From positions 1 through 51,195 of the forward strand of contig SVRP01000014.1 in the NCBI GenBank assembly GCA_015064735.1: a stretch of 51,195 nt of DNA, given 5' to 3'. The notes under the pieces were generated by a model. That model searched no databases. It was not told where the DNA came from and saw only the letters and a program-made list of their open reading frames with translations. A program made the translations under genes and the position numbers. Below are positions 25,575 through 46,548 of this stretch, in pieces; position 1 is the stretch's first letter; each line of letters starts with the position of its first letter. The stretch comes from Oscillospiraceae bacterium. Lineage in GTDB: Bacteria > Bacillota > Clostridia > Oscillospirales > CAG-272.

Positions 25575-28085
25575 TTACTTTTTAGGTCCTGCTGTATCGG
25601 ATCCGTCTCCAACGAGTCCAAGGCGCTCTGCGGCATCCTGTCTCATCTTGTACTTAAGCACCTTACCTGCGGCATTCATGGGGAAGCTGTCCACAAATTC
25701 GATATATTTGGGGACCTTATGACGAGCCATGCTTGCCTTGATATAGTCGGTCATTTCCTCAACCGTAACGCTTCCGGGCTCCTTAAGAATTATGCAAGCC
25801 ATTATTTCCTCGCCGTACTTCTTGTCCGGAACACCGATAACCTGAACGTCCTTCGTCTGCGGATGAGTGTAAATAAACTCCTCTATCTCCTTGGGGTAGA
25901 TGTTTTCACCGCCGCGGATTATCATGTCCTTAAGACGCCCCGTTATCTTGTAGTTTCCGTTCTCGTCGTAGCACGCAAGGTCTCCCGAATGGAGCCAACC
26001 GTCCTCATCGACAGTTTCCTTTGTAGCGTCGGGCATCTTGTAATAACCCTTCATGGTATTGTATCCCTTTGCACAGAATTCTCCGTTTACACCGGGACCC
26101 ACCTCTGCACCCGTTTCGGGGTCAACTATCTTACACATAACGTGGGGAAATGCGCTTCCGACAGTTTCGGTACGGACGTCCAGAGGCTCTGTCCAGGAGC
26201 TCATGGTGTTACCGGGGGCACATTCGGTCTGACCGTAAACGCTGACAATACCCGTCATATTCATTTCATCGGGACGTGCGGCACGTCTCATAAGCTCAGG
26301 GGGACATCCCGAGCCCGCCATAATTCCCGTTCTCATGTGCGAGAAATCGGTTGAGCGGTAGTTGGGATGATTGAACATTGCTATGAACATAGTAGGAACA
26401 CCGTTGAAGCAGGTGATCTTCTCTTGATTTATACATGCGAGAGAGGATTTTGCCGAGAAATAGGGCATAGGACACATGGTAGCACCGTGAGTCATAGACG
26501 ACGTCATGGACAGTGTCATACCGAAGCAGTGGAACATGGGAACCTGAATCATCATTCTGTCCGCAGTGGAAAGTCCCATTCGGTCTCCGATGCATTTTCC
26601 GTTATTTACAACGTTGTAGTGGGTAAGCATAACACCCTTGGGGAAGCCTGTGGTTCCCGAGGTGTACTGCATGTTGCAAACGTCGCTGGTCTTAACAGCC
26701 GCCGCCATTCTCGCAACCTGCTCGCGACTTACAAGCTTATAGCGCTCCATAGCCTCGTCAAAGGTGAGACAGCCCGCCTGCTTGAATCCAACGGTAATTA
26801 CGTTGCGTAGGAAGGGAAGCTTCTTTGCATGGAGAGGCTCGCCGGGCTTTGTGTCTTTTATTTCGGGACAGAGAGTGTTGATAATATCCTTATAGTTGGA
26901 GTCAAGACAGCTCTCGATCATTACGAGAGTGTGAGTGTCGGACTGCCTGAGCAGATACTCTGCCTCGTGTATCTTGTACGCCGTGTTGACGGTAACGAGA
27001 ACCGCCCCGATCTTGGTGGTCGCCCAGAAGGTTATATACCATGCGGGAAGATTGGTTGCCCATACGGCAACCTTTGAGCCTGCTTTTACCCCGAGAGATA
27101 CGAGGGCTCTTGCAAAGCGGTCTACGTCTTCACGGAACTGTGCGTAGGTACGGGTATAGTCAAGAGTGGTGTACTTGAAGCAATACTGATCGGGAAATTC
27201 CTCGGCAACTCTGTCGAGCACCTGAGAGAAGGTAAGGTCAATAAGCTCATCTTTCTTCCAGATATACTGTCCCGATCCGTCGTGATTGAAATAAAGGCTC
27301 TTTTTCATGTCCCGCGTGGAATGGAAATGAGACATGTAGTTTACAAAGTGGGGGAATATAATTTCGGGATCCTTGAGGTCGTCAAGCCAATCGGGCTTCC
27401 ATTCAAGGGAAATGAAGGCATCGTAATTTACCGATGAAAGCGCGCGCATTACGTCCTCTATAGGCATAGAGCCTTCACCGATAAGCTGATATACACCGTT
27501 ATCGTCAGAGTCGCGAACGTGTACGTGAGCAATGTATGCTCCGAGATTTTTAATAGTCTGATCTCCCGATTCTCCGTGATCCCTGAACGTATGGTGAATG
27601 TCCCAAAGAGCGGCAAGATTGTCGCTTGCGAATCTGTCGAGCATTGCGCGGAGTCTTGCCGTGTCCGAGTAGATTCCGCTGGTCTTTATAAGAATGCTTA
27701 CGTTTTTATCGGCAGCAAGAGAAAGAAGCTCAGTAATTGCCGAATAAACCGCTTCTTCATTATCGCGCAGAGCGCATACTACAACGTAAGGTACTCTTGC
27801 GTTGTGCGCTATCTCAATAAGGCTTTTTACAGATGATACGGCATTTTCGTCGGAGGAAATATCGTAAGAGGTGTCAAAGCAGGGAATAGAAAGCCCTCTT
27901 TCTCTTAACTGACGGACCGTTGCCGCTGTATTATATTTGTGAAAGGGCCCGCTTTTTTCCATTAACGGGTCAAACTTGGTGAGATTGTATACCTCAACGC
28001 CCGAAAAGCCCATGTCAATGGCTACGTCGAGCATCTCACTAAAGGAAAGATCAGGCCATCCTCTTGTGGAAAAGGAGAGTTTCAT
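25575..28085 (-). CDS. Fusion: sugar-isomerase-type TIM barrel + acyl-CoA synthetase
   Basis: The 836-residue protein joins two enzymes. Residues 1 to about 260 are a xylose-isomerase-like (AP_endonuc_2) TIM barrel (DMGFSGVEVYNL, LAALWDIHHTF, YIAHVHVRDS, FISLEWKPDW). From about 275 to 825 it is an AMP-forming acyl-CoA synthetase: MQYTSGTTGFPKGVMLTH (P-loop, about 470), YGQTECAPG, GWLHSGDLA, GRLKDMIIRGGENIYP and the C-terminal catalytic Lys in PMNAAGKVLKYKM. The ligase half activates a carboxylic acid to its CoA ester; here probably a branched short-chain acid, by context. The role of the barrel is unknown. It follows the LeuA-like gene with a one-base overlap, under a leucine T-box. Confidence 0.9.
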   Translation of the reverse strand: MKLSFSTRGWPDLSFSEMLDVAIDMGFSGVEVYNLTKFDPLMEKSGPFHKYNTAATVRQLRERGLSIPCFDTSYDISSDENAVSSVKSLIEIAHNARVPYVVVCALRDNEEAVYSAITELLSLAADKNVSILIKTSGIYSDTARLRAMLDRFASDNLAALWDIHHTFRDHGESGDQTIKNLGAYIAHVHVRDSDDNGVYQLIGEGSMPIEDVMRALSSVNYDAFISLEWKPDWLDDLKDPEIIFPHFVNYMSHFHSTRDMKKSLYFNHDGSGQYIWKKDELIDLTFSQVLDRVAEEFPDQYCFKYTTLDYTRTYAQFREDVDRFARALVSLGVKAGSKVAVWATNLPAWYITFWATTKIGAVLVTVNTAYKIHEAEYLLRQSDTHTLVMIESCLDSNYKDIINTLCPEIKDTKPGEPLHAKKLPFLRNVITVGFKQAGCLTFDEAMERYKLVSREQVARMAAAVKTSDVCNMQYTSGTTGFPKGVMLTHYNVVNNGKCIGDRMGLSTADRMMIQVPMFHCFGMTLSMTSSMTHGATMCPMPYFSAKSSLACINQEKITCFNGVPTMFIAMFNHPNYRSTDFSHMRTGIMAGSGCPPELMRRAARPDEMNMTGIVSVYGQTECAPGNTMSSWTEPLDVRTETVGSAFPHVMCKIVDPETGAEVGPGVNGEFCAKGYNTMKGYYKMPDATKETVDEDGWLHSGDLACYDENGNYKITGRLKDMIIRGGENIYPKEIEEFIYTHPQTKDVQVIGVPDKKYGEEIMACIILKEPGSVTVEEMTDYIKASMARHKVPKYIEFVDSFPMNAAGKVLKYKMRQDAAERLGLVGDGSDTAGPKK

Positions 28086-29488
28086 TAAGCTTCCTCCTCA
28101 TAAATAATTTTGTTAAGTGCGCTCAGATATGCGCGAATTCCCGCACCGACGATGTCGGTGGAAATACCTATACCCGAATAAACCTTACCGCCCGCGCGGA
28201 GCTTTACTACGGTCTGACCCATAGCCTCGCGTCCCTCGGTAACCGCCTGAAGCTGGAAGTCATCTAGCTCGTAGCTGCACCCCGTGATCTTTTCGATGGC
28301 CTGGAAAGCCGCGTCGATAGAGCCGTCGCCGATGAAAACGCCCTCAACAGAGGTGCCGTTTTTAATGAGCTTAATGTGAGCGGTGGCGGATATGGTGTTT
28401 CCGGATGTTATAACGTATGTGTCGAGCTTATAAGTGGAGGGAACCTGCATTGCGGAGGACGCAACGATTGCATCAAGCTCCTTGAAGGATACCTTCTCCT
28501 TTTTATCGGCGATCTGCTTAAATGATGTGTATACTGCCTGTACATCCTCGGAGGATAAGTCGTATCCGAGTCTTACGGTAGCTGCCGCTACAGCTTCCTC
28601 TGTGTCGTGAGCAGTGAGGAAGATCCCATCATCTGTTTCGGCTTGTGCGGAGACGTTTTGTCCCTTGCCTGTGTGGCAGAGTCTTTCGATTTGAGAAATA
28701 ATTACGCTGAGCTGAGTAGCTCTTACTCCGACAGAAGCGTCAAGAGAGTCCGATTTTGCCGTGAGAATTCTCGTTACATTTGCAAGAGAGACCTCGGAAA
28801 GGGAATTGGTGGCAGTGCGGATCTGAGTTGCGCCTGACGCAATAGCAGTAATGGCACAGGCATCTGCCATAGCAATAGTATTGGAGCATGCAACGCCGAG
28901 AGTAACGTTCTTAAGGCTTGGTATCGCATCATACTGCTTGCTTATAAACTCGGCAAACTCTGAGGGAAGCATAGCTCCTGCGGTGTCGCAAAGGGTTACA
29001 GTTCCGGCACCTGCCGCAATAGCGGCTTCTATTGCCTTAACAAGAAAATCGCCGTCGCTACGGGTAGCATCCTCGGCAATGAATTCTACGTCAGAGCAAA
29101 GTGCGCGGCAAGCTGCAACCGTACGGCTGATAGCATCGAGCATTGCATCGGGTTTTTTGTGGAAAATATATTCTATTTGCACCGAACTTGTTGATGCGAA
29201 AACCTGAAGACGGGGCTTTTTTGCATTTTTTAATGCTCCCCAAACCTTTTCAATATTTTCGTTATTTAAAAGCTCTACGGGAACGGCAATACGGCTGCAC
29301 TCAACGGCAGCTGCAACAGATTTTATCAATAGCGAATCAACTCTGGGGTCTTTTATGCCATCAAGCTCAATAAGATCTACACCGATCTTATCAAGTAGCT
29401 TGGAAAGCTCGATCTTTTCCTTGAAGGAAAGACGCAGATCCTCGGAGGTCTGCTTCATTGTTGCGTCGCTGATTACAATTTGTTTCAT
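28085..29488 (-). CDS. LeuA-like protein with degenerate catalytic site
   Basis: The 467-residue protein aligns by eye with 2-isopropylmalate/homocitrate synthases: FASTSSVQIEYIFHKKPD, VEFIAEDATRSDGDFLV and TVTLCDTAGAMLPSEF. A complete LeuA allosteric domain follows at the end (SVEGVFIGDGSIDAAFQAIE, GRGxA-like EGREAMGQTVVKL). Key residues are changed: DTTLRDGEQ has become DATMKQTSE (residues 8-16), and the metal-binding HxHND has become ACSNT (about 200). Two of the metal ligands are therefore missing. It may be regulatory, or have a changed reaction. ATG 29488 lies 13 bases after AAAGGAGA. A leucine T-box precedes it. Confidence 0.8.
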   Translation of the reverse strand: MKQIVISDATMKQTSEDLRLSFKEKIELSKLLDKIGVDLIELDGIKDPRVDSLLIKSVAAAVECSRIAVPVELLNNENIEKVWGALKNAKKPRLQVFASTSSVQIEYIFHKKPDAMLDAISRTVAACRALCSDVEFIAEDATRSDGDFLVKAIEAAIAAGAGTVTLCDTAGAMLPSEFAEFISKQYDAIPSLKNVTLGVACSNTIAMADACAITAIASGATQIRTATNSLSEVSLANVTRILTAKSDSLDASVGVRATQLSVIISQIERLCHTGKGQNVSAQAETDDGIFLTAHDTEEAVAAATVRLGYDLSSEDVQAVYTSFKQIADKKEKVSFKELDAIVASSAMQVPSTYKLDTYVITSGNTISATAHIKLIKNGTSVEGVFIGDGSIDAAFQAIEKITGCSYELDDFQLQAVTEGREAMGQTVVKLRAGGKVYSGIGISTDIVGAGIRAYLSALNKIIYEEEA

Positions 29489-29513
29489 GTTTCGTATATG
29501 TCTCCTTTCAAAC

Positions 29514-29800
29514 AAAAAAAGCCCCCGGCCGTTTACACGGCTTCAGGGACGAATAATTTTCGCGGTACCACCCTGATTACCCCCAAAAAGGGAAATCACT
29601 CAAAAGCCCTAAAATATTAGGCCTTGCCCTGTAACGGGGGCTGCCGGGTCTCATTACTTGCGTGCGCTTTGCCAAGACCGACTCAGGAAAGAGAGCCCAA
29701 AACCGTCCGCATCGGTTCGCACCAACCACCGACTCTCTGCAGCATCCGAATAAAGGGTAAGATTTCCGTCATAGTCCTTCGTAAATTTCAATAAATTATA
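29514..29800 (-). promoter_or_regulatory. T-box riboswitch, leucine-type specifier (CUC)
   Basis: On the minus strand a promoter-like TATAAT (29800-29795) is followed by a full T-box leader. Stem I contains AGAGAGTCGGTGGTTGGTG. The specifier loop reads CTCTTTCCTGAG, with CTC at 29693-29691 by alignment to known leaders. The T-box is GGTGGTACCGCG (about 29574-29560, with UGGU to pair the tRNA 3' end). A terminator (29548-29521) ends in seven Ts (29520-29514). T-boxes read through when the matching tRNA is uncharged, so this operon should respond to leucine shortage. UGGU fits the A discriminator of tRNA-Leu. The base after the specifier is T instead of the usual purine. Confidence 0.88.
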
Positions 29801-29937
29801 TTATCAATGAATATATTTAACCATTAAATGCTCGATTTGTCAAGTGGAAATTGCTAAAAAATACGATGTTTAACAATAATCACAAAAAAACGACACTGAA
29901 TTTTTGAAAGTTTGTGCATTTTTGAGCAAGAAAATAT

Positions 29938-29966
29938 TTGACTTTTACGTATAAAAATGATAGAAT
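29938..29966 (+). promoter_or_regulatory. Promoter for the isoleucine T-box operon
   Basis: TTGACT at 29938-29943, a 17-base spacer and TAGAAT at 29961-29966, with TGA before the -10; start expected near 29973. Confidence 0.75.
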
Positions 29967-29972
29967 ATATCA

Positions 29973-30235
29973 TAGATGTAGAAGTCGAAAAACTGTGACG
30001 AAGACGGTAGGGCATAATAAACATTCAGAGAATCGGCGGGCGGTGAGAGCCGATTGTGAAAAGCCGGTCTACCCATCACTTCCGAGTTTGAAATTCGAGC
30101 TGAGGTTAGGGTTTCACGTTCCCCGCGTTAAGGGCAAGGATTATATTTAGATCCTAAGTGGCGGTTTTCGCAATTTGAGTGGTTCCGCGGGTATTGTGCA
30201 CTCGTCTCAGAATTTTGTTCTTGAGACGTTTTTTT
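29973..30235 (+). promoter_or_regulatory. T-box riboswitch, isoleucine-type specifier (AUC)
   Basis: The leader has a long stem I (GACGAAGACGGTAGGG pairing with the CTACCC region). The specifier segment is ATCACTTCCGAG, with ATC at 30075-30077. A stem III with AAGGATTATATTTAGATCCT follows, then the T-box GAGTGGTTCCGCGG (30177-30190, UGGU at 30180-30183), and a terminator CGTCTCA/TGAGACG (30203-30228) with seven Ts (30229-30235). AUC codes for isoleucine, so the rightward operon should be induced when tRNA-Ile is uncharged. Confidence 0.85.
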
Positions 30236-30363
30236 GTTTTAGAATATCGCGGTGGAAACCACTGACACACAGACCGTCTAAGGTAAGACAGTCGGCAAAA
30301 AATCATAGCTAATAATGCGCCTCAAGTAATAGGTTTACGGCGGCGCTGAAAAAGAGAGGTAGT
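30236..30363 (+). other. Untranslated stretch between T-box terminator and coding start
   Basis: This 128-base stretch holds a GTGG/CCAC hairpin and an imperfect GACCGTCT/AGACAGTC stem (about 30272-30295). A GAGAGG ribosome site precedes the ATG at 30364. No further gene is seen. The length after a T-box terminator is unusual and may hold a second control element. Confidence 0.4.
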
Positions 30364-32640
30364 ATGGAACAGCCTATTGATATAAAATTAAAACAGATCG
30401 CAGACCGAATTCGTGAATTGAGAATCGTTACGGGTCTGTCTATCGCCGAAATGGCAGAAAAAACAGGCCTCAGCGAGAGCGAATACGAGGCTTGCGAAAA
30501 TGGAACACGAAATCTGAGCATTGCGTTCCTTTATCATTGCGTACTTATCTTCGGGGTAGATATGAGTGATATTCTTGAGGGTAAAAGCCCCAAGCTCCGC
30601 TCTTATGCCCTGACAAGAAGAGGAGAGGGTCAGAAGATAGAGGAGGCTCACCACATGGTGGGATATAACCTTGCATCGGGATTCCGCAACCGTATAGCGC
30701 TGCCGCTTTACATGGATATGAAGTACCATGAGGGCGCAGAGAATGAAGATATAGAGCTCGTAACCCATGAGGGGCAGGAATGCGATATCGTAATAACCGG
30801 TCAGATGAAGATTCGGATCGGCGAGCATACCGAGATACTCAATCCGGGAGACTGTATATACTACGATTCCGGAACACCTCACGGAATGGTAGCTGTCGGC
30901 GGCGCGGATTGCTCCTTCTATGCGATCGTCCTTCGCAATCAGGCGGCAAGAGAGGGAGAGCAGGCGGCTGAATCCTCGGCGGCAACAAAACGTCGCAGTG
31001 ACGATAATCAGCAGAGAATTTATCAGGATTTCATTATTCCTACCGAAAAGGACGGAGTACTTACCGATATCTCCTTTAAAAATGAGGATAAATTTAATTT
31101 TGCATTCGACGTTGTTGACAAGCTCGGCACACGTAAGCCCGATAAGCTTGCTATGCTTTATGTGGGTGAGAACGGGGAAGAACATAGGTTTACTTTCCGT
31201 GATATGAAGAGAGAATCCGCAAGAGTTGCCAATTACCTTACGTCTATCGGCATAAGGAGAGGAGACCGCGTGATGCTGGTGCTTAAGCGCCACTATCAGT
31301 TCTGGTTCTCAATTCTTGCATTGAATAAGCTTGGAGCAATTGCTATTCCCGCACCTAATCAGTTGCTTGAAAAGGACTTTGAATACAGATTTAACGCAGG
31401 AAATATAAAGGCGATCCTTTGTACGGCGGATGGGCATGTAGCCGATTCTGTGGATGCGGCAGCTGCAAAGTGCGATTGCCTTACAAATAAGATTATCGTT
31501 GGCGGGGACAGAGACGGTTGGCGTAGCTTTGACCGCGAGTACGGTCTGTACAGCAGTCATTATGCGAGAACCGAGGATTCACCCTGCGGAGACGATCCCA
31601 TGCTTATGTTCTTTACGTCGGGAACGTCGGGTTATCCCAAGATCGCAGCGCATAACCACAGATACCCCTTGGGACATTTCATTACCGCAAAGTATTGGCA
31701 TCAGGTAAATCCCGACGGATTGCATCTTACCATATCCGATACAGGGTGGGCAAAGGCAATGTGGGGTAAGCTCTTCGGTCAGTGGTTGTGTGAAGCGGCG
31801 ATATTCGTTTACGACTTTGACCGCTTTGACCCGGAGCATATTCTCCCGTTGTTCAAGAAATATAATATAACTACCTTCTGTGCGCCTCCCACCATGTACA
31901 GAATGCTTATCAAGCAGGATCTTTCCCGCTTCGATCTTTCCAGCATAGAGCATGCATCTACCGCGGGTGAGGCTCTTAACCCGGAGGTGTTCCGTCAGTT
32001 TGAAATACATACGGGTCTGAAGATAATGGAGGGCTTCGGTCAGTCCGAAAGCACCCTTATCATAGGCAACCTTGCGGGCGGAAGCCACAAGATAGGCTCT
32101 ATGGGTAAGCCTACGCCTCTTTATAAGGTATGCTTGCTGAGCTCAGAGGGCAAGCCTGTCGAAGCCGGTGAAAGCGGAGAAATCTGTATCGATATATCGG
32201 GAGGACTTCCTTGCGGACTTGCCTATGCGTACGAGGGTAACCCCGAGATTACGGCAGAAACGTGGCGAGACGGATATTATCATACCGGCGACCTCGCATG
32301 GCAGGATGAGGACGGATTCCTTTGGTACGTAGGACGTGCAGACGACGTTATTAAGTCTTCGGGCTACCGTATAGGACCCTTCGAGATTGAAAACGTAATC
32401 ATGGAGCTTCCTTATGTTCTTGAATGCGGAGTTTCGGCGGCACCCGACGAGATCCGCGGTCAGGTAGTCAAGGCAAGCATAGTACTTGTAAAGGGCTATG
32501 AGGGAACAGACGAGCTTAAGAAGGAAATTCAGAACTACGTCAAGTCCCGAACCGCTCCTTATAAGTATCCGAGAATAGTAGAATTCCACGAGAGTCTGCC
32601 TAAGACGACCAGTGGAAAGATAATAAGAAAAAAGCTTTGA
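30364..32640 (+). CDS. Fusion: XRE helix-turn-helix + cupin + acyl-CoA synthetase
   Basis: The 758-residue protein has three parts. Residues about 8-62 are an XRE helix-turn-helix (GLSIAEMAEKTGLSESEYEA). Residues about 105-190 are a cupin (IVITGQMKIRIGEHTEILNP, GDCIYYDSGTPHGM). From about 230 it is an AMP-forming acyl-CoA synthetase of the medium-chain/benzoate type, with FFTSGTSGYPK (about 416), GFGQSES (about 557), YYHTGDLAW (about 638) and the Lys of TTSGKIIRKKL at the end. The N-terminal half is a regulator architecture, so the protein could be an enzyme that also senses ligand or DNA. The context predicts a branched short-chain acid as substrate. It is the first gene behind an isoleucine T-box. 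Confidence 0.92.
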   Translation: MEQPIDIKLKQIADRIRELRIVTGLSIAEMAEKTGLSESEYEACENGTRNLSIAFLYHCVLIFGVDMSDILEGKSPKLRSYALTRRGEGQKIEEAHHMVGYNLASGFRNRIALPLYMDMKYHEGAENEDIELVTHEGQECDIVITGQMKIRIGEHTEILNPGDCIYYDSGTPHGMVAVGGADCSFYAIVLRNQAAREGEQAAESSAATKRRSDDNQQRIYQDFIIPTEKDGVLTDISFKNEDKFNFAFDVVDKLGTRKPDKLAMLYVGENGEEHRFTFRDMKRESARVANYLTSIGIRRGDRVMLVLKRHYQFWFSILALNKLGAIAIPAPNQLLEKDFEYRFNAGNIKAILCTADGHVADSVDAAAAKCDCLTNKIIVGGDRDGWRSFDREYGLYSSHYARTEDSPCGDDPMLMFFTSGTSGYPKIAAHNHRYPLGHFITAKYWHQVNPDGLHLTISDTGWAKAMWGKLFGQWLCEAAIFVYDFDRFDPEHILPLFKKYNITTFCAPPTMYRMLIKQDLSRFDLSSIEHASTAGEALNPEVFRQFEIHTGLKIMEGFGQSESTLIIGNLAGGSHKIGSMGKPTPLYKVCLLSSEGKPVEAGESGEICIDISGGLPCGLAYAYEGNPEITAETWRDGYYHTGDLAWQDEDGFLWYVGRADDVIKSSGYRIGPFEIENVIMELPYVLECGVSAAPDEIRGQVVKASIVLVKGYEGTDELKKEIQNYVKSRTAPYKYPRIVEFHESLPKTTSGKIIRKKL

Positions 32641-32648
32641 GAAGTAAT

Positions 32649-33317
32649 ATGGAACACAAAAGATTAACCCTCTTTGCGGGACATTACGGAAGCGGTAAAA
32701 CAAATATTGCCGTAAATTACGCGATGCTGCTTGCAGAGGAAGGAAAAAAGGTCTGTATTGCCGATCTTGATATCGTAAATCCCTATTTCAGAACCAAGGA
32801 TAGCGAGAGTGAATTGACAGAGAAGGGCATAAGCCTTATCTCATCAAAATACGCAAACAGTAATGTGGATCTTCCCGCAATTCCCGCGGAAAGCTACCGC
32901 TTGGTGCAGGATAAATCGGTGCACGGAGTTATAGATATAGGTGGAGATGACCGTGGAGCATACGCTCTTGGAAGATTTGCCGATGCCATAAAGGCGGAGA
33001 ACGACTACAGAATGGCGTTTGTTCTCAATAGATACAGACCTCTCACCTCTACGGTGGAGGACGCGGTGGAAATCATGAAGGAAATAGAGACAGCGTGCGG
33101 AATAGGTTTCAACTGTATCGTAAATAACTCGAATATAGGATCGGAAACGACTAAGGAGACGGTGCTTGAATCGGTAGAATTTGCCGATAGGCTCAGTCTT
33201 GCCACAGGATTACCGATATGGCTTCATACGGTAGAGAAAAATATAGCCGAGGAGCTTTCGGATTTACCGATTTTGCCCCTGAAGCTTCAAAAAAAATACT
33301 TTGATCTGCCAAACTGA
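32649..33317 (+). CDS. ParA/MinD-like P-loop ATPase
   Basis: The 222-residue protein starts with a deviant Walker A (FAGHYGSGKTNIAVNYA), then CIADLDIVNPYFRTKD (second Walker-type Asp and nucleotide contact) and GVIDIGGDDRGAYAL. These are features of the ParA/MinD/CobQ superfamily. There is no DNA-segregation partner nearby. Its place between an acyl-CoA synthetase and the ferredoxin subunit suggests a job in assembly or regulation of the oxidoreductase, for example Fe-S cluster handling as in Mrp/NBP35 relatives, but the Cys motif of those carriers is absent. ATG 32649 is 9 bases after the previous stop. Confidence 0.85.
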   Translation: MEHKRLTLFAGHYGSGKTNIAVNYAMLLAEEGKKVCIADLDIVNPYFRTKDSESELTEKGISLISSKYANSNVDLPAIPAESYRLVQDKSVHGVIDIGGDDRGAYALGRFADAIKAENDYRMAFVLNRYRPLTSTVEDAVEIMKEIETACGIGFNCIVNNSNIGSETTKETVLESVEFADRLSLATGLPIWLHTVEKNIAEELSDLPILPLKLQKKYFDLPN

Positions 33318-33354
33318 TATTGGGCAGATAAGTCATTGAATAGGAGGAACAAGA

Positions 33355-33561
33355 ATGGCTAAAGTAACATTTAACACTGATAAGTGTAAGGGATGTGGCT
33401 TGTGTGTTGACGCATGCCCCAAAAAGTGCCTTGCGATCTCGCAGGACAAACTTAATTCCAAGGGATATTCTCCCGCAATTATGGTGGATCAGGAAAAATG
33501 TATCGGCTGTGCATTCTGCGCAACCATGTGCCCCGATTGTATCATAACAGTAGAAAAGTAA
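33355..33561 (+). CDS. 2-oxoacid:ferredoxin oxidoreductase, ferredoxin (delta) subunit
   Basis: The 68-residue protein is a 2[4Fe-4S] ferredoxin with two CxxCxxCxxxCP motifs (CKGCGLCVDACPKKC and CIGCAFCATMCPDC). It passes electrons between the thiamine-pyrophosphate site of the oxidoreductase and external ferredoxin. Its place directly before the alpha, beta and gamma genes matches the four-subunit VOR/KOR arrangement. AGGAGG precedes the ATG. Confidence 0.93.
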   Translation: MAKVTFNTDKCKGCGLCVDACPKKCLAISQDKLNSKGYSPAIMVDQEKCIGCAFCATMCPDCIITVEK

Positions 33562-33603
33562 GATTTTTTGCAGTTGCGGAATAGCAACGGAATGGAGAAA
33601 AAT

Positions 33604-34665
33604 ATGGCAGAAAGAATTTTAATGAAGGGTAATGAGGCGATTGCGGAGGCTGCAATCAGAGCAGGCTGCCGTCATTATTTTGGATACCCTATAACGCCTC
33701 AAACTGAAATTGCCGCATACATGGCAAAGAAAATGCCTAAAATCGGCGGCGTGTTTCTTCAGGCAGAAAGCGAAATCGCGTCTATAAATATGGTATATGG
33801 CGCTGCAGCTGCCGGAATGAGAGTAATGACCTCTTCCTCCAGCCCCGGAATTTCGCTCAAGGCAGAGGGACTTAGCTATATAGCAGGCTCCGACGTACCC
33901 GCCCTCGTTGTTAACGTACAGCGCGGAGGTCCCGGACTCGGCGGTATTCAGCCCTCACAGTCTGATTATTTTCAGGCTACCAAGGGAGGCGGACACGGCG
34001 ACTACCGTATGATCGTTCTTGCGCCTGCATCGGTACAGGAAATGGCAAGTCTTACAATCAAGGGCTTTGACCTTGCCGATAAGTATTGCATTACCTCTAT
34101 GATACTTGCAGACGGTACTATCGGTCAGATGATGGAGCCTATTACATTTGAGGATACCGAGCCCAGCGTTTACGAAAAGCCTTGGGCACTTACGGGTACC
34201 GAGTGCAAGCGTCCCCATAACGTAGTAAACTCACTTTATTTGAAGCCCGACCAGCTTGAAAAGAAGAACTTCGAGCGCTTCGAAAAGTACGCACAGATAG
34301 AAGAAAACGAGGCTATGTGGGAGGAATACATGATGGACGACGCGGAAATCTGCGTAGTTGCATTCGGTATTGCTTCGAGAATAGCTAAGAATGCCGTTGC
34401 TGAAGCGAGAAAAGCAGGTATAAAGGTCGGTCTTATCCGTCCCATAACCCTCTGGCCGTTCCCAACAAAGGCACTCAGAGCCGCAGCAGATAAGGTTAAG
34501 TCCTTTATTTCCGTAGAGCTCAGCATGGGTCAGATGATCGAGGATGTAAAGCTTGCTACCGAGAGCTTAAGACCCGTAACACTTTGCAACCGCACAGGCG
34601 GTATGATTCCCACACCCGATGAGGTGCTTGCTGCAATTCATAAGGCAGAGAAAGGAGAATTCTGA
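33604..34665 (+). CDS. vorB: 2-oxoacid:ferredoxin oxidoreductase alpha subunit (VorB-like)
   Basis: The 353-residue subunit carries the pyrimidine-side domain of the TPP enzyme: [20 protein letters not shown] (signature YPITP), [32 protein letters not shown] and [20 protein letters not shown]. The C-terminal domain contains [15 protein letters not shown]. Length and sequence fit the VorB/KorA group, which acts on 2-ketoisovalerate or 2-ketoglutarate. The neighbouring ilvE and Ile T-box favour branched-chain 2-oxoacids. ATG 33604 is chosen because TGGAGA lies six bases before it; earlier in-frame starts at 33568 and 33592 lack one. Confidence 0.92.
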
Positions 34666-34667
34666 TT

Positions 34668-35426
34668 ATGGCAGTAGTATTTGAGAAACCCAAAGCATTG
34701 ACCGATGCGCCCTTTCATTACTGTCCCGGCTGTCCCCACGGTATAATCCACCGTTTGGTAGCTGAGGCTATGGACGAGCTCGGAATAGAGGGAAAGGCAA
34801 TAGGCGTAGCACCCGTAGGATGCGCGGTCATGGCTTACGATTATTTCGCTTGCGATATGATAGAAGCTCCTCACGGCAGAGCGCCCGCAGTTGCAACCGG
34901 TATTAAGCGTTGCCGTCCCGATAATATCGTATTTACATATCAGGGAGACGGAGACCTTGCTTCTATCGGTATGGCAGAAACCGTTCATTCCGCTGCAAGA
35001 AACGAGAACATCACGGTTATCTTTGTAAATAACGCAATTTACGGTATGACCGGCGGACAGATGGCTCCGACCAGCCTTCCCGGTCAGGTTACGCAGACCT
35101 CTCCTTACGGACGTGATGTAAACCATTGCGGATGGCCCATAAAGGTCAGCGAGATGCTCGCGACCCTTGAGGGACCTGCATATATAACCCGTGTTGCCGT
35201 AAACAACGTAAAGAACGTAAAAAATGCTAAAAAGGCAATAAAGAAGGCATTCCAAAATCAGATCGAAGGCAAGGGCTTCTCCTTTGTTGAGGTCGTTTCC
35301 GCTTGTCCTACCAACTGGGGTATGACTCCCAAGCAGGCACTTGAGTGGGTAGAGAGCGATATGCTTCCTTATTATCCTATCGGCGTATACAAGGATAAAT
35401 TCGAAAAGGAGGATGCCGCAAAATGA
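34668..35426 (+). CDS. 2-oxoacid:ferredoxin oxidoreductase beta subunit (TPP-binding)
   Basis: The 252-residue subunit binds the pyrophosphate of thiamine diphosphate. [15 protein letters not shown] is the N-terminal Cys/His segment of the family, and [42 protein letters not shown] contains the TPP motif (GDGD ... NN) at about residues 85-128. It lies two bases after the alpha gene, and its stop overlaps the gamma start by four bases (ATGA). Confidence 0.95.
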
Positions 35427-35962
35427 AAACCACTGAAATTCTTATAGCCGGATTTGGCGGACAGGGAATACTGTTTTCGGGAAAGTTCCTCGCATACAAG
35501 GGGCTTCTTGAGGAGCTTCAGGTATCATGGCTTCCGTCCTACGGACCTGAAATGCGCGGAGGTACCGCAAACTGTAACGTTATTCTTTCTGATAATCCCG
35601 TAGGATCTCCTATTATTACTGCTCCCAATGTGCTTATCGCGATGAACCTTCCTTCTCTTGAGAAGTACGTTGATGCGGTCGTAGCAGGCGGACAGATATA
35701 CGTTGATTCTTCCCTGATCGACGTAAAGGTTGAGAGAGATGACGTAGAGGTATTCTACATTCCCGCAACTCAGATGGCAAAGGAGGAGGGAATTTCCAGC
35801 CTCGCTAATATGATCATCGTAGGACATCTTCTTGAAAATCACCCCGAGCTTTCCTTTGACGGAGTAGACGTAGTGGTAGAGAAGCTTGTTCCCCCCAAGA
35901 AGGCGGCTCTTAAGGAGCTTAACATGAAGGCGCTCAGCCTCGGAAAAAATTATAATAAATAA
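35423..35962 (+). CDS. 2-oxoacid:ferredoxin oxidoreductase gamma subunit
   Basis: The 179-residue subunit has the usual start [20 protein letters not shown] and the [19 protein letters not shown] segment that contacts CoA and the alpha subunit. It completes the delta-alpha-beta-gamma set. The ATG overlaps the beta stop, so translation is coupled. ilvE follows 15 bases downstream. Confidence 0.94.
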
Positions 35963-35977
35963 TTTTGGAGAAATATT

Positions 35978-37009
35978 ATGAGTAATAAGCAGTTGGATTG
36001 GGCAAATCTCGGCTTCGGATATGTCCAGACAGATAAAAGATACGTTTGTAATTTCAAGAACGGCGCATGGGAAGAGGGTGGACTCACCGAGGACGCAAAC
36101 GTCGTACTCAACGAGTGCGCAGGAGTATTCCAGTACGCGCAGACCGTTTTTGAGGGCTTGAAGGCATACCGTACCGAGGACGGACGTATAGTAACATTCC
36201 GCCCCGACCTTAACGCAAAGCGTATGGCAGACAGCGCAAGAAGACTTGAAATGCCCGCATTCCCCGAGGATAAGTTCGTAGAGGCGGTAGAGCAGGTTGT
36301 TGCGGCAAACGCTGACTTCGTTCCCCCTTATGGCTCGGGGGCTACCATGTACCTTCGTCCCTTCATGTTCGGAAGCAATCAGGTTATCGGTGTAAAGCCC
36401 GCAACCGAGTATCAGTTCAGAATTTTCGCAACTCCCGTAGGACCTTACTTTAAAGGCGGTGCAAAGCCTCTTACTCTCCGTGTGTGCGATCTTGACCGCG
36501 CAGCACCCAGAGGAACGGGACACATCAAGGCAGGTCTTAACTACGCAATGAGCTTGCACGCAATCGTTGACGCGCACAATCAGGGCTACGACGAGAATAT
36601 GTACCTTGACTCCGCAACGAGAACCAAGGTTGAGGAGACCGGCGGAGCAAACTTTATCTTCGTAACCAAGGACGGTAAGCTCGTAACGCCTAAGTCCGAT
36701 ACGATCCTTCCTTCCATTACAAGACGCTCTCTTTGCTACGTTGCAAAGGAATACCTCGGCATGGAGGTAGAGGAGAGAGAGATTCTCCTTGATGAAGTTA
36801 AGGATTTTGCAGAGTGCGGACTTTGCGGAACAGCAGCAGTAATTTCTCCCGTAGGAAAGGTTGTAGACCACGGAACCGAAATTTGCTTCCCCAGCGGAAT
36901 GACCGAAATGGGTCCCGTTCTTAAGAAACTCTACGATACCTTGACAGGTATCCAGATGGGCAGACTTGAAGCTCCCGAGGGATGGATCCGCGAGATAAAG
37001 GTTAAATAA
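35978..37009 (+). CDS. ilvE: Branched-chain amino acid aminotransferase
   Basis: IlvE interconverts Leu/Ile/Val and their 2-oxoacids with 2-oxoglutarate, using PLP. The 343-residue protein is the longer (type II) fold-IV form. Visible features are FEGLKAYRTEDGRIVTFRPD, YLRPFMFGS, GHIKAGLNYAMSLHA (PLP-binding Lys, about residue 185), VEETGGANFIFV and GTAAVISPVGKV. The ribosome site TTTGGAGAA lies 8 bases before the ATG. It is the last gene of the isoleucine T-box operon, placing transamination directly after the 2-oxoacid-forming complex. Confidence 0.96.
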   Translation: MSNKQLDWANLGFGYVQTDKRYVCNFKNGAWEEGGLTEDANVVLNECAGVFQYAQTVFEGLKAYRTEDGRIVTFRPDLNAKRMADSARRLEMPAFPEDKFVEAVEQVVAANADFVPPYGSGATMYLRPFMFGSNQVIGVKPATEYQFRIFATPVGPYFKGGAKPLTLRVCDLDRAAPRGTGHIKAGLNYAMSLHAIVDAHNQGYDENMYLDSATRTKVEETGGANFIFVTKDGKLVTPKSDTILPSITRRSLCYVAKEYLGMEVEEREILLDEVKDFAECGLCGTAAVISPVGKVVDHGTEICFPSGMTEMGPVLKKLYDTLTGIQMGRLEAPEGWIREIKVK

Positions 37010-37208: not shown

Positions 37209-39017
37209 ATGGAACTGACAAAGATTGAAATTGAAAAATACAAATCAATAAAATCACCTGTTGCGATCACTTTTTCAAAAGATCTGCCAACTATTTTGAT
37301 TGGTAAAAACGGTAGTGGAAAAACGAATGTTTTGGAAGCATTATCAGCAATCGCTTTGGCAAACACTAACTACTACGGAAACAGAGAAAAAGAGCAGCCT
37401 ACTTACCGTGCATACATTCGGTTGAGCGAAGAAGATGTAGCCACAATGCTGCCTGATGTCGTTTATGATAAAAACAAATGTGAGATAGTTGCTTATAGCA
37501 GCGGTAGTAATCTGAAGATTGATAGAGTACGCTCTGAATATATCGTTTCATCAATCAGAAAAGAAATTGCAGATATTCGAAATTTGGCTTCGCAGTTAAA
37601 AGATGCTGTTGATTTATACGAAAAGCAACTTATAAAAATATCCCACGATGGATATGAGGAATTGCCGATTCATTGCTACAATTTGAAAGATGCTAACGGT
37701 AGATTAACGAATTACAATATTATCTGTTATCAAGCCGAATGGTTTATAAAGCATATTAATGAAACACTTGAACGAATGCTAAAAACCTTTAATGACGATG
37801 AACAAGCACTTATTTTTATTGCAGATAATTACATACACTTTGGATTTGATAAACATCAATTTTTCAAACTAGAGTATGTAGAACCTTCTCTTGCTAAATT
37901 TGAACAAAAATTTGTATCAATCAACAAAACTGCGATTAAAAGAGAAATCACAAAGATCAACAAGGCAACAAAAGATGCTTGCGAGCGTATCAATCGGTTG
38001 ATAAAAGAGATAGAAGATAGAACTAAGCGTATTCAAGAAGGCTTGGATACTGATCACATGCTAAGGCAGGAACAAGAGGAACGCTATTACTCGTTCTTGC
38101 GCCATGTTCAGCATATTATCGGAAAAAGATGCTTGTTCTTGAAAAACGAGAGTAATGATGTAATCTTCAGGAAAGAGGACAGAAATTACTATTATAACGA
38201 TCATTCCAATTCCATAATGGAAACCTATTTACGGCAGGTGTATGATGGAAGTGATCGGGAAGAACTGCTAAGAGCTTCGAAAAACGAGTTGACTCTTTCA
38301 GAGCGAGCGGTTGCAGATTTTGAGGCGTTTTTGAATGAGAATATTCCTTTGTTCGATAGAGAAATGTATGATAGTATTTCTGTACAGGCAGGCGAGAAAG
38401 GGAACATCTCTATTTTCTTAAACGAAAAGACCGGGGAGCAAATCAATCTTAACGAAACAAGCGCAGGCAGACGGTGGTATTTCACTTACTACTTTATGAA
38501 AAACATACTTAATGAAGGTGACATCTTCATTATCGACGAGCCTGCTGCAATGTTACATCCAAGTGCACAGCGCGAGGTGCTTTGCGATTTGATGGAGTTG
38601 ACAAAACGAGGTGTGAAAGTGGTGTATTCCACTCATAGTCCGTACTTGATTCCCGATGAATGGCAGTGTGTGCATTTTGTTACAATGACCGAAGAAGGCA
38701 CTGAAGTAAATTGCGTTTCATCAAATCAAGAACTTGTTTTTCAAATGACCAATATCGTTGGAGAGGATATTTTTGATGTTCAGACAGTTTTTGATATGTA
38801 TGCACAAGGCGATCCTATTAAGATAGGCAGAAAATGCTATAATGCTGTTCGAAATCAAACTAAGGGTTTAGATGAGGCAGCCTCAAAATTGTTTGTGTCT
38901 GTTGATACGATTAAATCGTGGAACAGAAACGGTGATCATTTTCGCTGTCCAAAGCTTGAGAACATAATTGCTGTTTGTAACTATGCAAATATCAAAATCA
39001 AAGACCTACTAAATTGA
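37209..39017 (+). CDS. ABC-type (AAA_15/OLD-like) ATPase with C-terminal helix-turn-helix
   Basis: The 602-residue protein is a RecF/SMC-like ATPase: Walker A IGKNGSGKTN (residues 31-40), a long helical coiled-coil middle (about 95-330), an ABC-type signature NETSAGRRW (about 415), Walker B FIIDEPAAMLHP (about 440) and H-loop YSTHSPYL (about 473). No TOPRIM domain is seen, unlike OLD nucleases. Residues about 550-602 look like an XRE-type helix-turn-helix (LDEAASKLFVSVDTIKSWNR). The next gene is an HNH nuclease, so the pair resembles the composition of Septu (PtuA/PtuB). Base composition is more AT-rich than the upstream operon, suggesting acquisition. The defence role is inference. Confidence 0.85.
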   Translation: MELTKIEIEKYKSIKSPVAITFSKDLPTILIGKNGSGKTNVLEALSAIALANTNYYGNREKEQPTYRAYIRLSEEDVATMLPDVVYDKNKCEIVAYSSGSNLKIDRVRSEYIVSSIRKEIADIRNLASQLKDAVDLYEKQLIKISHDGYEELPIHCYNLKDANGRLTNYNIICYQAEWFIKHINETLERMLKTFNDDEQALIFIADNYIHFGFDKHQFFKLEYVEPSLAKFEQKFVSINKTAIKREITKINKATKDACERINRLIKEIEDRTKRIQEGLDTDHMLRQEQEERYYSFLRHVQHIIGKRCLFLKNESNDVIFRKEDRNYYYNDHSNSIMETYLRQVYDGSDREELLRASKNELTLSERAVADFEAFLNENIPLFDREMYDSISVQAGEKGNISIFLNEKTGEQINLNETSAGRRWYFTYYFMKNILNEGDIFIIDEPAAMLHPSAQREVLCDLMELTKRGVKVVYSTHSPYLIPDEWQCVHFVTMTEEGTEVNCVSSNQELVFQMTNIVGEDIFDVQTVFDMYAQGDPIKIGRKCYNAVRNQTKGLDEAASKLFVSVDTIKSWNRNGDHFRCPKLENIIAVCNYANIKIKDLLN

Positions 39018-39042
39018 GTGGACAGCTGTCCACTCGATTTTT
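39016..39042 (+). terminator. Palindromic hairpin between ATPase and HNH genes
   Basis: A perfect 20-base palindrome (arms GAGTGGACAG/CTGTCCACTC, 39016-39035) overlaps the ATPase stop and is followed by GATTTTTTA. It works as a terminator or, in double-stranded DNA, as an operator for the ATPase's own helix-turn-helix. Confidence 0.6.
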
Positions 39043-39093
39043 TATTTCGTGCGATGTATAATGATGGTACTCAAACGAAAGGAGGTAATCAAA

Positions 39094-39405
39094 ATGTCGA
39101 AGTATCGAACCATCGATGTGTGGAATGAGCGGTATGGGAACAAGGAAAACGTATATGATTATGCAGGACGATTGATGAAAAAATCAGCTTGCGGAAATCC
39201 ACACAGTGCTTATCATCCAACACTCGACCACATAAGACCTTTGTCAGCAGGCGGCTGTGACGTTCTCGGAAATATCGAAATTTGCCATCGTGATACCAAC
39301 GAGGAAAAAGCTGATAGCTTTTCTCTCTGGAAAGCGAACGGAAAGAGATTTCGCGCCAAGAGAGTCAAAGGAACAAGAACAGAGTATGAGATAGAGGAAA
39401 TCTAA
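39094..39405 (+). CDS. Small HNH endonuclease
   Basis: The 103-residue protein contains a compact HNH motif: TLDHIRPLSAGG (D-H), GNIEICHRDTN (N...H) and NEEKAD, about residues 45-75, which is enough for a beta-beta-alpha metal nuclease site. No zinc-binding CxxC pairs are present. ATG 39094 follows GGAGG; an in-frame start at 39049 lacks a site. A TATAAT at 39057-39062 may give it separate transcription. As partner of the preceding ATPase it would be the effector of a Septu-like system, though it is smaller than PtuB proteins I know. Confidence 0.78.
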   Translation: MSKYRTIDVWNERYGNKENVYDYAGRLMKKSACGNPHSAYHPTLDHIRPLSAGGCDVLGNIEICHRDTNEEKADSFSLWKANGKRFRAKRVKGTRTEYEIEEI

Positions 39406-44259: not shown

Positions 44260-44280
44260 CGATTGAAAGGAGCATTGGAA

Positions 44281-46548
44281 ATGGATGAAAAGAAGGAAAA
44301 GAAAGAAAAGAAAGAAAAGAAATATGTAATTGACAATGCTCAACTTATGGCTGAGTGGGATTGGGAGAAGAACAAAGAATTAAACTTAGAACCTCATTAT
44401 TTAACATATGCTAGTAACAAAAGACCGTGGTGGAAGTGCAAGGAAGGACATGAGTGGCGAGATACGTTAAGTCATAGAACTCAGCGCGGAAATGGATGTC
44501 CGTATTGTTCTAATCATAGGGTTTATGCGGGGTTTAACGATTTAATGACAACCGATCCTCAAATTGCAAATGAATGGAATTTCGAAAAAAATGTGGCGTT
44601 AAAACCATCGGATGTCACTCGTGGAAGTAGCCAAAAAATGTGGTGGAAATGTAGAGAAGGACACGAATGGCAGGAAACGATAAACAATAGAACCAAGGGA
44701 AGTGGATGCCCATATTGCTCAGGAAAAAGAGCTATCCCATATGTTAACGATTTACAAACGACTAATCCTAAATTAGCCGCAGAATGGTTTTACGAAAAAA
44801 ACGGAAACTTAAAACCAAATGAATTCTTACCAAATAGCGGTAAAAAAGTATGGTGGCGATGCAAACAGGGGCACGAGTGGCAGGCGACAATTCGTAGTAG
44901 AAATTCTAGAAATACCGGGTGTCCATATTGTTCAAGGATATTACCTATTGTAGGTGTAACCGATTTGCAAACATGCAATCCAAGATTAGCCGATGAATGG
45001 AATTATGAAAAAAACGGGCGAATAACACCAAAAAGTTTTTTGCCTGGAAGTGAAAAAAAGGTGTGGTGGAAATGCAAAAAAGGCCATGAGTGGCAGGCGA
45101 CAATAAATAGCCGAATGTCAGGAAGAGGATGTCCTATTTGTTCTTCTGGATTGCGCACCTCATTTCCTGAGTATGCCTTGTTCTATTATCTTACTAAATG
45201 TGGACTTGATGTAGTACAGTCATATACCGAGTTTGGTTATGAACTTGATATTTATATTCCTTCTCTTAAAATAGCGATAGAATATGATGGCTATTTTTGG
45301 CACAAAAATAAAATCGAGCAGGATTTGGAAAAAAATCAAAAATGCAATAGAGATGGGGTAAAATTATATAGAATTCGTGAAGGACTTCCTACATTGAACG
45401 ATACTTCTATGGATTATGTAATTGAAGTGCGAGACGGGGATTTTTCAAATGTAATGGATGAAATTATTGGCGAAATCACAAATGTTAAGGTGGATATTGA
45501 TATCAAGCGAGATTATGTTGATATAGAGAACTTGCGTGAGCAAATGGAGAAGAACGGTTCTCTTTTGGTAACCAATCCAAAGCTTGCGGGAGAGTGGAAT
45601 TATGAACGTAACCGTAAATTGATGCCAGAACACGTATTTTCCAACAGTAATAAAAGAGTTTGGTGGAAATGCAAGGAAGGACACGAGTGGCAAGCACAAA
45701 TTAACAGCAGAAATAAGGGGAGCGGATGTCCGTATTGTTCAAATCACAAAGTGATGATAGGATTTAATGATTTGGAAACAACCAATCCTCAACTTGCAAG
45801 TGAATGGAATTTTGAAAAAAATGCCCCATTAACACCGCAAGATATTTCTTGTGGAAGTAACAAAAAGGTTTGGTGGAAATGCAAAGAAGGCCATGAGTGG
45901 CAAGTGCAAATATCTCAAAGACAACAAGGGAGTGGTTGCCCATATTGTGCTGGGCAGAGAGCTATTGCCGGAAAAAACGATTTACAAACATTAAATCCCA
46001 GTCTCTTTGCGGAATGGAATTATGAAAAGAATATCTCGGTAGACCCGCAAAAAATAATGCCGAACAGTCATAAAAAAGTTTGGTGGAAATGTAAGGAAGG
46101 ACATGAATGGCAAGCAACGCTTCACAACCGTTCAAATGGAAGAGGTTGTCCCTATTGTTCTCGAAAAAAGGTTCTTCGCGGTGAAAATGATTTGCAAACG
46201 GTTATGCCTATCTTAGCAGAGGAATGGAATTATGAAAAGAATGAAAATTTGAAGCCAAGCGATTTTCTTCCTCAAAGCAACAAAAAGGTTTGGTGGAAAT
46301 GCTCACAAGGGCACGAATGGGAGGCACGTATACAAGAAAGATATAAAGGACATAGGTGCCCATACTGTACTGGTTGGTTAAGGAACGAAGTAATCAATAT
46401 AGATACTGGAGAAGTGTTTGAAAGTTTTTCTAAAGCAGCAAAAAAATATAATACATATATTGCTTCTATTAGTAGATGTTGCAAAGGAAATCAAAAGACT
46501 GCAGGGGGATATCATTGGAAGTATTATGCTGAAGATGATAAGAAATGA
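44281..46548 (+). CDS. Zinc-ribbon repeat protein with VSR-like nuclease core and NUMOD1-like tail
   Basis: The 755-residue protein has a Lys/Glu-rich start and four repeats of about 69 residues (each LAxEWNYEKN...KKVWWKCKEGHEW...GCPYC). A PD-(D/E)xK nuclease-like domain follows (about 294-400; SFPEYALFYYL, YELDIYIPSLKIAIEYDGYFWH, KCNRDGVKLYRIRE). Then come four more repeats (about 427-695) and a C-terminal stretch VINIDTGEVFESFSKAAKKY...GGYHWKYY that fits NUMOD1. The repeats match the DUF4379 zinc-ribbon family and should bind DNA with one Zn each. The nuclease resembles VSR/DUF559. It may be a mobile-element or defence nuclease. ATG 44281 follows GAAAGGAG. Confidence 0.85.
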   Translation: MDEKKEKKEKKEKKYVIDNAQLMAEWDWEKNKELNLEPHYLTYASNKRPWWKCKEGHEWRDTLSHRTQRGNGCPYCSNHRVYAGFNDLMTTDPQIANEWNFEKNVALKPSDVTRGSSQKMWWKCREGHEWQETINNRTKGSGCPYCSGKRAIPYVNDLQTTNPKLAAEWFYEKNGNLKPNEFLPNSGKKVWWRCKQGHEWQATIRSRNSRNTGCPYCSRILPIVGVTDLQTCNPRLADEWNYEKNGRITPKSFLPGSEKKVWWKCKKGHEWQATINSRMSGRGCPICSSGLRTSFPEYALFYYLTKCGLDVVQSYTEFGYELDIYIPSLKIAIEYDGYFWHKNKIEQDLEKNQKCNRDGVKLYRIREGLPTLNDTSMDYVIEVRDGDFSNVMDEIIGEITNVKVDIDIKRDYVDIENLREQMEKNGSLLVTNPKLAGEWNYERNRKLMPEHVFSNSNKRVWWKCKEGHEWQAQINSRNKGSGCPYCSNHKVMIGFNDLETTNPQLASEWNFEKNAPLTPQDISCGSNKKVWWKCKEGHEWQVQISQRQQGSGCPYCAGQRAIAGKNDLQTLNPSLFAEWNYEKNISVDPQKIMPNSHKKVWWKCKEGHEWQATLHNRSNGRGCPYCSRKKVLRGENDLQTVMPILAEEWNYEKNENLKPSDFLPQSNKKVWWKCSQGHEWEARIQERYKGHRCPYCTGWLRNEVINIDTGEVFESFSKAAKKYNTYIASISRCCKGNQKTAGGYHWKYYAEDDKK
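44334..46377 (+). repeat. Eight tandem zinc-ribbon coding repeats, split 4+4
   Basis: Each unit is about 205-210 bases and encodes CxxGHEW and CPYC pairs. Copies 1-4 lie before the nuclease core (about 44334-45155) and copies 5-8 after it (about 45559-46377). DNA identity between units is high around the TGGTGGAAATGCAA block. Confidence 0.85.

Follow-up and report, generated by a model that had tools for sequence, protein, structure and literature searches.

A T-box-controlled locus of an Oscillospiraceae bacterium as a probable scavenging route from branched fatty acids to branched-chain amino acids

Branched volatile fatty acids are growth factors of rumen bacteria, and the chemistry of their use has been known since the 1960s. 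We analysed a stretch of 51,195 bases from an Oscillospiraceae bacterium (contig SVRP01000014.1, hereafter the window), which is one whole contig of a 2.11-Mb genome that is 95% complete. The window carries a T-box-controlled gene set with two acyl-CoA synthetases, a 3-methyl-2-oxobutanoate:ferredoxin oxidoreductase (VOR), the branched-chain aminotransferase IlvE and a homologue of the isopropylmalate synthase LeuA, here named pLeuA. An earlier note on this DNA had read the locus as making branched-chain amino acids from scavenged branched fatty acids. The analysis supported this reading: the locus very probably encodes a scavenging route that stands in for the de novo pathway of branched-chain amino-acid synthesis, with the substrates, the direction and a sensor role as we infer them below.

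The closest described physiology is that of rumen fermentation. A passage of PMC7356843, citing Allison and Robinson, gives the conversion of isovalerate to leucine, 2-methylbutyrate to isoleucine and isobutyrate to valine by carboxylation and amination, in agreement with the earlier note, which had named branched-acid carboxylation as rumen physiology. The same branched-acid physiology is given for methanogens in a passage of PMC10658910. Among synthetases, Staphylococcus aureus MbcS activates 2-methylbutyrate and isobutyrate, and isovalerate poorly (PMC10026030), and MacsMa of Methanosarcina acetivorans, the protein of structure 3ETC, prefers 2-methylbutyrate (PMC10455477). The main text of a 2008 survey of T-boxes (PMC2494555) nowhere mentions oxidoreductase, acyl-CoA, ilvE, ferredoxin or AMP-binding, and the part of the GapMind paper that was covered mentions only isoleucine from propionate. 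The dedicated T-box-controlled gene set, its fusions and the LeuA pseudoenzyme were not found in the open-licence literature searched; within that literature the chemistry and physiology are known, and what appears new is the gene set, the T-box logic and the dead LeuA.

T-box leaders and the genes they control

The two T-box leaders of the window point away from each other around a stretch of 204 bases (Table 1). In the minus-strand arm, the Leu T-box is followed by pLeuA and then TIM-ACS1, and in the plus-strand arm the Ile T-box is followed by HTH-cupin-MbcS, a P-loop ATPase, VorD, VorB, VorA, VorC and IlvE. All the genes named in the earlier note were present, and its coordinates coincided with exact open reading frame limits; VorD and the P-loop protein were further members of the locus, missing from its list. 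Its two back-to-back leaders with Leu and Ile specifiers, its two acyl-CoA synthetases (both fused, by Pfam and NCBIfam), its complete VOR and its ilvE (of type II) were all recovered. For VOR all four subunit types (alpha, beta, gamma and ferredoxin) were found, VorB, VorA and VorC by profiles and VorD by its two cluster motifs. VorA and VorC were supported by Pfam domains and scored below their NCBIfam cut-offs. The pLeuA frame was listed to 29515 with a TTG start, and the ATG at 29485 agrees with its homologues; the TIM-ACS1 start overlaps the pLeuA stop as TAATG.

Table 1. Features of the branched-chain locus in the window (aa, amino acids; TPP, thiamine pyrophosphate).
Feature	Position	Strand	Evidence
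TIM-ACS1, xylose-isomerase-like TIM barrel + AMP-binding acyl-CoA synthetase, 836 aa	25575..28085	-	Pfam/NCBIfam
pLeuA, LeuA-like without catalytic residues, LeuA_dimer domain retained	28085..29485	-	Pfam, alignments
T-box leader 1, specifier CUC (Leu)	29542..29781	-	RF00230, 100.3 bits, E 5e-21
T-box leader 2, specifier AUC (Ile)	29986..30212	+	RF00230, 86.4 bits, E 4e-19
HTH-cupin-MbcS fusion (HTH + cupin + AMP-binding), copy B type, 758 aa	30364..32640	+	Pfam/NCBIfam; nearest structure 3ETC, 616 bits
CbiA/ParA-type P-loop ATPase	32637..33317	+	Pfam; in 38/80 loci
VorD, ferredoxin-type, two [4Fe-4S], 68 aa	33355..33561	+	two CxxCxxCxxxCP motifs in translation
VorB (alpha), 2-oxoacid:ferredoxin oxidoreductase	33568..34665	+	PRK07119, 551 bits, cut-off 399; POR_N + PFOR_II
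VorA (beta, TPP-binding)	34668..35426	+	TPP_enzyme_C, 77 bits
VorC (gamma)	35423..35962	+	POR, 103.6 bits
IlvE, branched-chain aminotransferase, type II	35978..37009	+	PRK13357, 460 bits, cut-off 307

The specifiers of the window were read from the covariance-model alignment columns taken as the specifier position. Leader 1 scored above the gathering score of Rfam RF00230 (93 bits). Leader 2 was slightly under it, yet its match ran across the full model (E 4e-19) and its specifier has the geometry that a T-box should show, on which grounds a false positive was rejected. A terminator-type hairpin was seen in the folded 3' end of leader 1 (z -2.1), and a terminator-type hairpin with a T run after leader 2 (fold z -1.3); a simple terminator scan found none for either leader. 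Ahead of leader 2 there was a promoter-like match at 29938-29966 (3 such sites found against 1.5 expected).

A scan of 84,980 species genomes showed at least 568 encoding relatives of pLeuA, among which canonical LeuA may be included. The best 80 of these, each with at least 48% identity, were fetched, and the recurrence of the gene order, which the earlier note had raised, was found widely among them. A TIM domain followed pLeuA in 79 of the 80 loci, and in the exception (L142) the contig ends 148 bases past pLeuA; the arrangement of pLeuA and then TIM is therefore beyond chance. The other members were found less often in loci of which many lie on contigs that end early: ACS1 in 72, HTH-cupin in 42, MbcS in 41, P-loop in 38, VorD in 36, VorB in 34 and IlvE in 27. 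The TIM and synthetase domains formed one open frame of at least 700 amino acids in 67 of the 73 tested (72 loci and the window), and in the six shorter frames the synthetase matches stop within 2 bases of contig ends. Record titles named a ruminant host or 'cow' for 46 of these best 80 of at least 568 relatives, a count in which database bias is uncontrolled. We also observed pLeuA-TIM units in records titled as Coriobacteriia-type (L112, L135 and L137) and Abditibacteriota (L131), maybe by transfer or by binning error.

To read the specifiers of the relatives we used a sequence pattern whose position was set from covariance-model alignments, with spot checks by the model. Counts cover the 80 fetched loci and the window, and T-boxes with the core motif and an unread specifier (2 for pLeuA, 1 for copy B and 2 for copy A of HTH-cupin-MbcS) were excluded. 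Leaders of pLeuA-TIM-ACS1 carried a Leu specifier in 60 of 61 read (81 genes, 63 with the core motif) and those of HTH-cupin-MbcS copy A an Ile specifier in 34 of 35 read (40 genes, 37 with the motif). Among the 24 copy B leaders read, 21 showed Val and 3 showed Ile (36 genes, 25 with the motif). The outlier of the Leu class (L141, pattern-read GGA) reads CTC by eye and that of copy A (L127, pattern-read TTG) reads ATC; both were kept as misses. CUC, CUG, AUC, GUC and GUA were confirmed as specifiers in example covariance-model alignments, in which some leaders of relatives, like leader 2 of the window, scored below the Rfam gathering cut-off. T-box specifiers follow synthetase type across the relatives. 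The reading of the earlier note needs correction here: valine is also part of the system, with Val T-boxes in relatives, two synthetase families, probably of different specificity, take part, and the genome has a second HTH-cupin-MbcS gene (below).

Copy B stood under an Ile T-box only in the window, L075 and L079. Because copy A is missing from all three loci, this suggests that a deletion may have put copy B behind the leader of copy A. No T-box motif preceded 11 of the copy B genes, each of which was in a locus having copy A.

The window HTH-cupin-MbcS matched the NCBIfam model MbcS (NF047394) best, at 425 bits, and by sequence the nearest solved structure to its MbcS domain was that of MacsMa. 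A second HTH-cupin-MbcS of the same genome (contig C24) also had MbcS as its best model, at 445 bits, and lies behind an AUC (Ile) T-box of 88.5 bits (E 9e-20, below gathering). HTH-cupin-MbcS would be a 2-methylbutyrate/isobutyrate:CoA ligase with N-terminal regulator-like domains, and the Ile and Val specifiers agree with the substrate preferences of S. aureus MbcS and MacsMa. TIM-ACS1 is probably an isovalerate:CoA ligase. It would be left with isovalerate for leucine because the MbcS types fit 2-methylbutyrate and isobutyrate and ACS1 is only distantly related to them. In the TIM half of the fusion (27300-28085, minus strand) we observed a largely conserved IKTSG motif with lysine 134, which may mark an altered metal site. 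Xylose-isomerase-like barrels have a metal-binding glutamate at this place, but the register of the alignment with 3wqo is uncertain there, and we draw no claim from it.

De novo pathway genes in carriers and the proposed route

To the question of the earlier note, whether ilvB, ilvC, ilvD and leuBCD are missing, the answer was yes for IlvC, IlvD, genuine IlvB and LeuC, none of which was found in the window's own genome, with an IlvB paralogue below the cut-off present. The search covered these four proteins and, by the pLeuA query, LeuA-like proteins. IlvD and IlvC had no match in this 95% complete genome. The only aconitase-family match was a frame of 752 amino acids, against about 425 for LeuC. 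The only IlvB-like protein scored 331 bits against a cut-off of 538, and it was rejected as a genuine IlvB on this score and because a like-scoring paralogue sits beside true IlvB in four relatives (G001, G011, G012 and G029). Among the side observations, the IlvB-like TPP enzyme at L186:3994-5658 (own genome, C16) was an acetolactate-synthase relative below the cut-offs of all listed models. No other LeuA-like protein was found in the own genome with the pLeuA query, which matches canonical LeuA weakly and could miss it.

Among 59 relatives including the own genome, IlvD was present in 2 of 13 pLeuA carriers against 31 of 46 others, and the counts for IlvC were likewise 2 of 13 against 31 of 46. 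Within the own genus IlvD and IlvC were present in 0 of 5 carriers, and IlvD in 20 of 25 non-carriers, where the five without it were all less than 80% complete. An order sample of 345 genomes, of which 343 were used (2 without a family label were dropped), showed IlvD in 11 of the 70 carriers and in 181 of the 273 remaining genomes (Fisher p = 1.5e-14), with carriers taken at E <= 1e-60, so that more distant pLeuA could count as non-carriers. The association held when stratified by family (Mantel-Haenszel z = -6.0), with residual relatedness remaining. For TIM-ACS1 without pLeuA the association with IlvD was weaker (21/56 against 160/217, stratified z = -3.0).

LeuC was told from aconitase by frame length (about 420-455 amino acids against at least 580, the exceptions being a frame of 523 in G296 and a partial one of 285 in G213). 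A LeuC-size frame was present in 12/12 and 4/4 IlvD-bearing non-carriers (two sets, with G029 in both) and in 0/7 and 0/11 IlvD-less carriers (two sets). The 11 IlvD-bearing carriers were divided, six having no LeuC-size frame (G031, G049, G074, G091, G141 and G258) and five having one (G117, G213 with its partial frame, G242, G257 and G332). G031, G091 and G258 were also without an HTH-cupin-MbcS match, as expected if isoleucine and valine are made de novo and only leucine is scavenged. Taken by these gene counts, the de novo branched-chain pathway appears largely lost in carriers.

In the proposed route, uncharged tRNA-Leu or tRNA-Ile would cause the T-boxes to allow transcription. TIM-ACS1 would activate isovalerate from the surroundings to isovaleryl-CoA for leucine, and the HTH-cupin-MbcS enzymes would activate 2-methylbutyrate and isobutyrate to the CoA esters for isoleucine and valine. 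VorDBAC would carry out the reductive carboxylation of these esters with ferredoxin electrons and CO2, and IlvE would transaminate the resulting 2-oxoacids to leucine, isoleucine and valine. pLeuA, as a leucine-binding subunit, would exert feedback on TIM-ACS1, which would now catalyse the first committed step of leucine synthesis. Each step is assigned from what is known of the protein families, and it is the context of the genes that suggests that VOR acts on branched 2-oxoacids in the carboxylating direction.

The same genes could run the other way. VOR and IlvE homologues act in Stickland-type degradation and the chemistry is reversible, so IlvE and VOR might degrade branched amino acids to acyl-CoAs, and the synthetases might act in recovering ATP or in keeping acyl-CoA levels balanced. 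This is very improbable: T-boxes for the end products should switch the genes on at shortage, most carriers are without IlvC, IlvD and LeuC, and AMP-forming synthetases consume ATP. Degradation by IlvE and VOR was rejected on the sense of the T-boxes and the loss of de novo genes. Scarcely more probable is a supply of branched acyl-CoA primers to membrane lipids with a secondary link to amino acids. Such a role would suit the MbcS-type domains and has a precedent in S. aureus MbcS (PMC10026030), but VOR and IlvE stand in the gene order, the T-boxes are specific to three amino acids and the carriers have lost de novo genes.

Several observations weigh against the scavenging route. The MbcS domains of both fusions reached only half of the equivalog cut-off of 850 bits, the substrate of TIM-ACS1 is read from its T-box alone, and the reversibility of VOR leaves an oxidative use open to the same genes. 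A strict upstream T-box motif was missing from 18 of the 81 pLeuA genes; at least one of these (L074) has a T-box by the covariance model, with length and position as in L002, and six others (L107, L109, L111, L113, L118 and L120) lie directly downstream of IlvE. An IlvD homologue is retained in 11 of 70 carriers, and one IlvD-less carrier (G051) retains a true IlvB (684 bits). HTH-cupin-MbcS was present in the other three of the six IlvD-bearing carriers that have no LeuC-size frame (G049, G074 and G141) and in 2 of 12 IlvD-bearing non-carriers (G119 and G343), and the link between its absence and IlvD retention is a pattern, not a rule.

The LeuA homologue pLeuA

The LeuA homologue of the earlier note stood as a member of the family, with an HMGL-like barrel and a LeuA_dimer domain (PF08502, 104.7 bits), and fell as a working synthase. 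Residues were counted in 81 copies (the 80 fetched loci and the window) against canonical LeuA of related genomes. The RD aspartate was kept in 0/81 and the RD arginine in 9/81, both HxH histidines were kept in 0/81, and the GER of the GERAGN loop together with the entire AFAHESGIHQHG segment was absent in 81/81. We take the RD aspartate and HxH to be metal ligands, and these plus the second segment to be active-site residues of LeuA. A profile alignment with solved isopropylmalate synthases showed HCHND to be likewise replaced in pLeuA. A working isopropylmalate synthase was rejected since the catalytic residues are gone in all 81 copies; judged by its residues, pLeuA is catalytically dead in that role.

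The decay was less complete in 12 further copies, among them G020, whose record is probably identical with that of L074. Of the HxH histidines the first was kept in 0/12 and the second in 1/12 (G049), and the RD aspartate in 2/12 (G031 and G035), and the AFAHESGIHQHG segment was absent in 12/12. By these alignments the decay of pLeuA is graded and most complete near the window. The most conserved region of pLeuA was the leucine-type domain, with a mean majority fraction of 0.79 against 0.67 for the barrel. A comparison by sequence matched no solved leucine-domain structure and gave one chance match.

Three roles were weighed. A receptor that binds leucine and acts on TIM-ACS1 is favoured over new catalysis and is about as likely as not or slightly more. 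The binding of leucine and the contact with TIM-ACS1 are both predictions, and the less complete decay of the further copies weighs against this role. It is possible, with clearly less likelihood, that pLeuA has become a new catalytic step in the route, for example with a changed active site that takes an acyl-CoA: conservation of the barrel persists, with positions such as D7, E105, D139 and R142 invariant, and single residues of the old active site are retained in some distant copies. However, HxH, the RD ligands and the second segment were lost in 81 of 81 copies, and the segment in all 12 further copies as well, every step of the proposed route already has an enzyme, and it is the leucine domain that is best conserved. 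A decaying leftover without function would fit the loss of catalytic residues and an in-frame stop in each of G014 and L130, but it is very unlikely, as 72 of 72 matches in the order sample had no internal stop, pLeuA is retained over 38-84% identity in many families ahead of TIM-ACS1, and its leucine domain is selectively conserved.

A wider view is about as likely as not. As isovalerate scavenging took the place of de novo leucine synthesis, LeuA would have been kept as a dead leucine receptor for allosteric feedback on TIM-ACS1, and the whole module would be a widespread alternative system of branched-chain amino-acid biosynthesis. As part of the same view, T-box codons would couple three synthetases, two of them with HTH-cupin domains, to three amino acids.

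Flanking genes and comparison with described systems

Directly after IlvE, the window encodes an AAA_15 ATPase (37209-39405, plus strand) that resembles AriA (83.5 bits) and PtuA (61 bits). The small open reading frame after it looks by eye like an HNH nuclease and had no Pfam or PADLOC match. Together they may form a defence pair like PARIS or Septu. Further on (44263-46548, plus strand) a protein in which DUF4379, a treble-clef zinc finger, matches eight stretches showed a weak match to the MTES_1575 nuclease.

The pLeuA-TIM-ACS1 unit could serve as a marker for finding the candidate gene set in metagenomes, and substrate predictions may be readable from T-box codons. If the route is true, carriers of the module would be called auxotrophs wherever annotation relies on the classical genes, and some genomes now counted as branched-chain auxotrophs may prove prototrophic when isovalerate, 2-methylbutyrate and isobutyrate are supplied. 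This would matter for rumen nutrition, cross-feeding and culturing. If true, the use of a dead LeuA as leucine receptor would be a clear example of an allosteric domain that outlived its enzyme and moved to a new pathway.

The acids, products and chemistry proposed here are the same as in the rumen carboxylation of Allison, Bryant, Robinson and Peel; that work described a physiology, and the locus offers a candidate T-box-controlled gene set. S. aureus MbcS and M. acetivorans MacsMa are branched short-chain acyl-CoA synthetases like the MbcS domain of the window. Unlike them, the window type has an N-terminal HTH-cupin part and Ile/Val T-boxes, and often VOR and IlvE adjoin it. The HMGL-like barrel and the LeuA_dimer domain are common to LeuA and pLeuA, whereas pLeuA lacks the metal and catalytic residues and has a deletion of an active-site segment. 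The oxidoreductase has the same four subunits (D, B, A and C) as known VOR, but is found here in a T-box-controlled, apparently biosynthetic operon. The control of branched-chain amino-acid synthesis by RNA is shared with T-box-controlled ilv and leu genes, but here the T-boxes would control a scavenging route.

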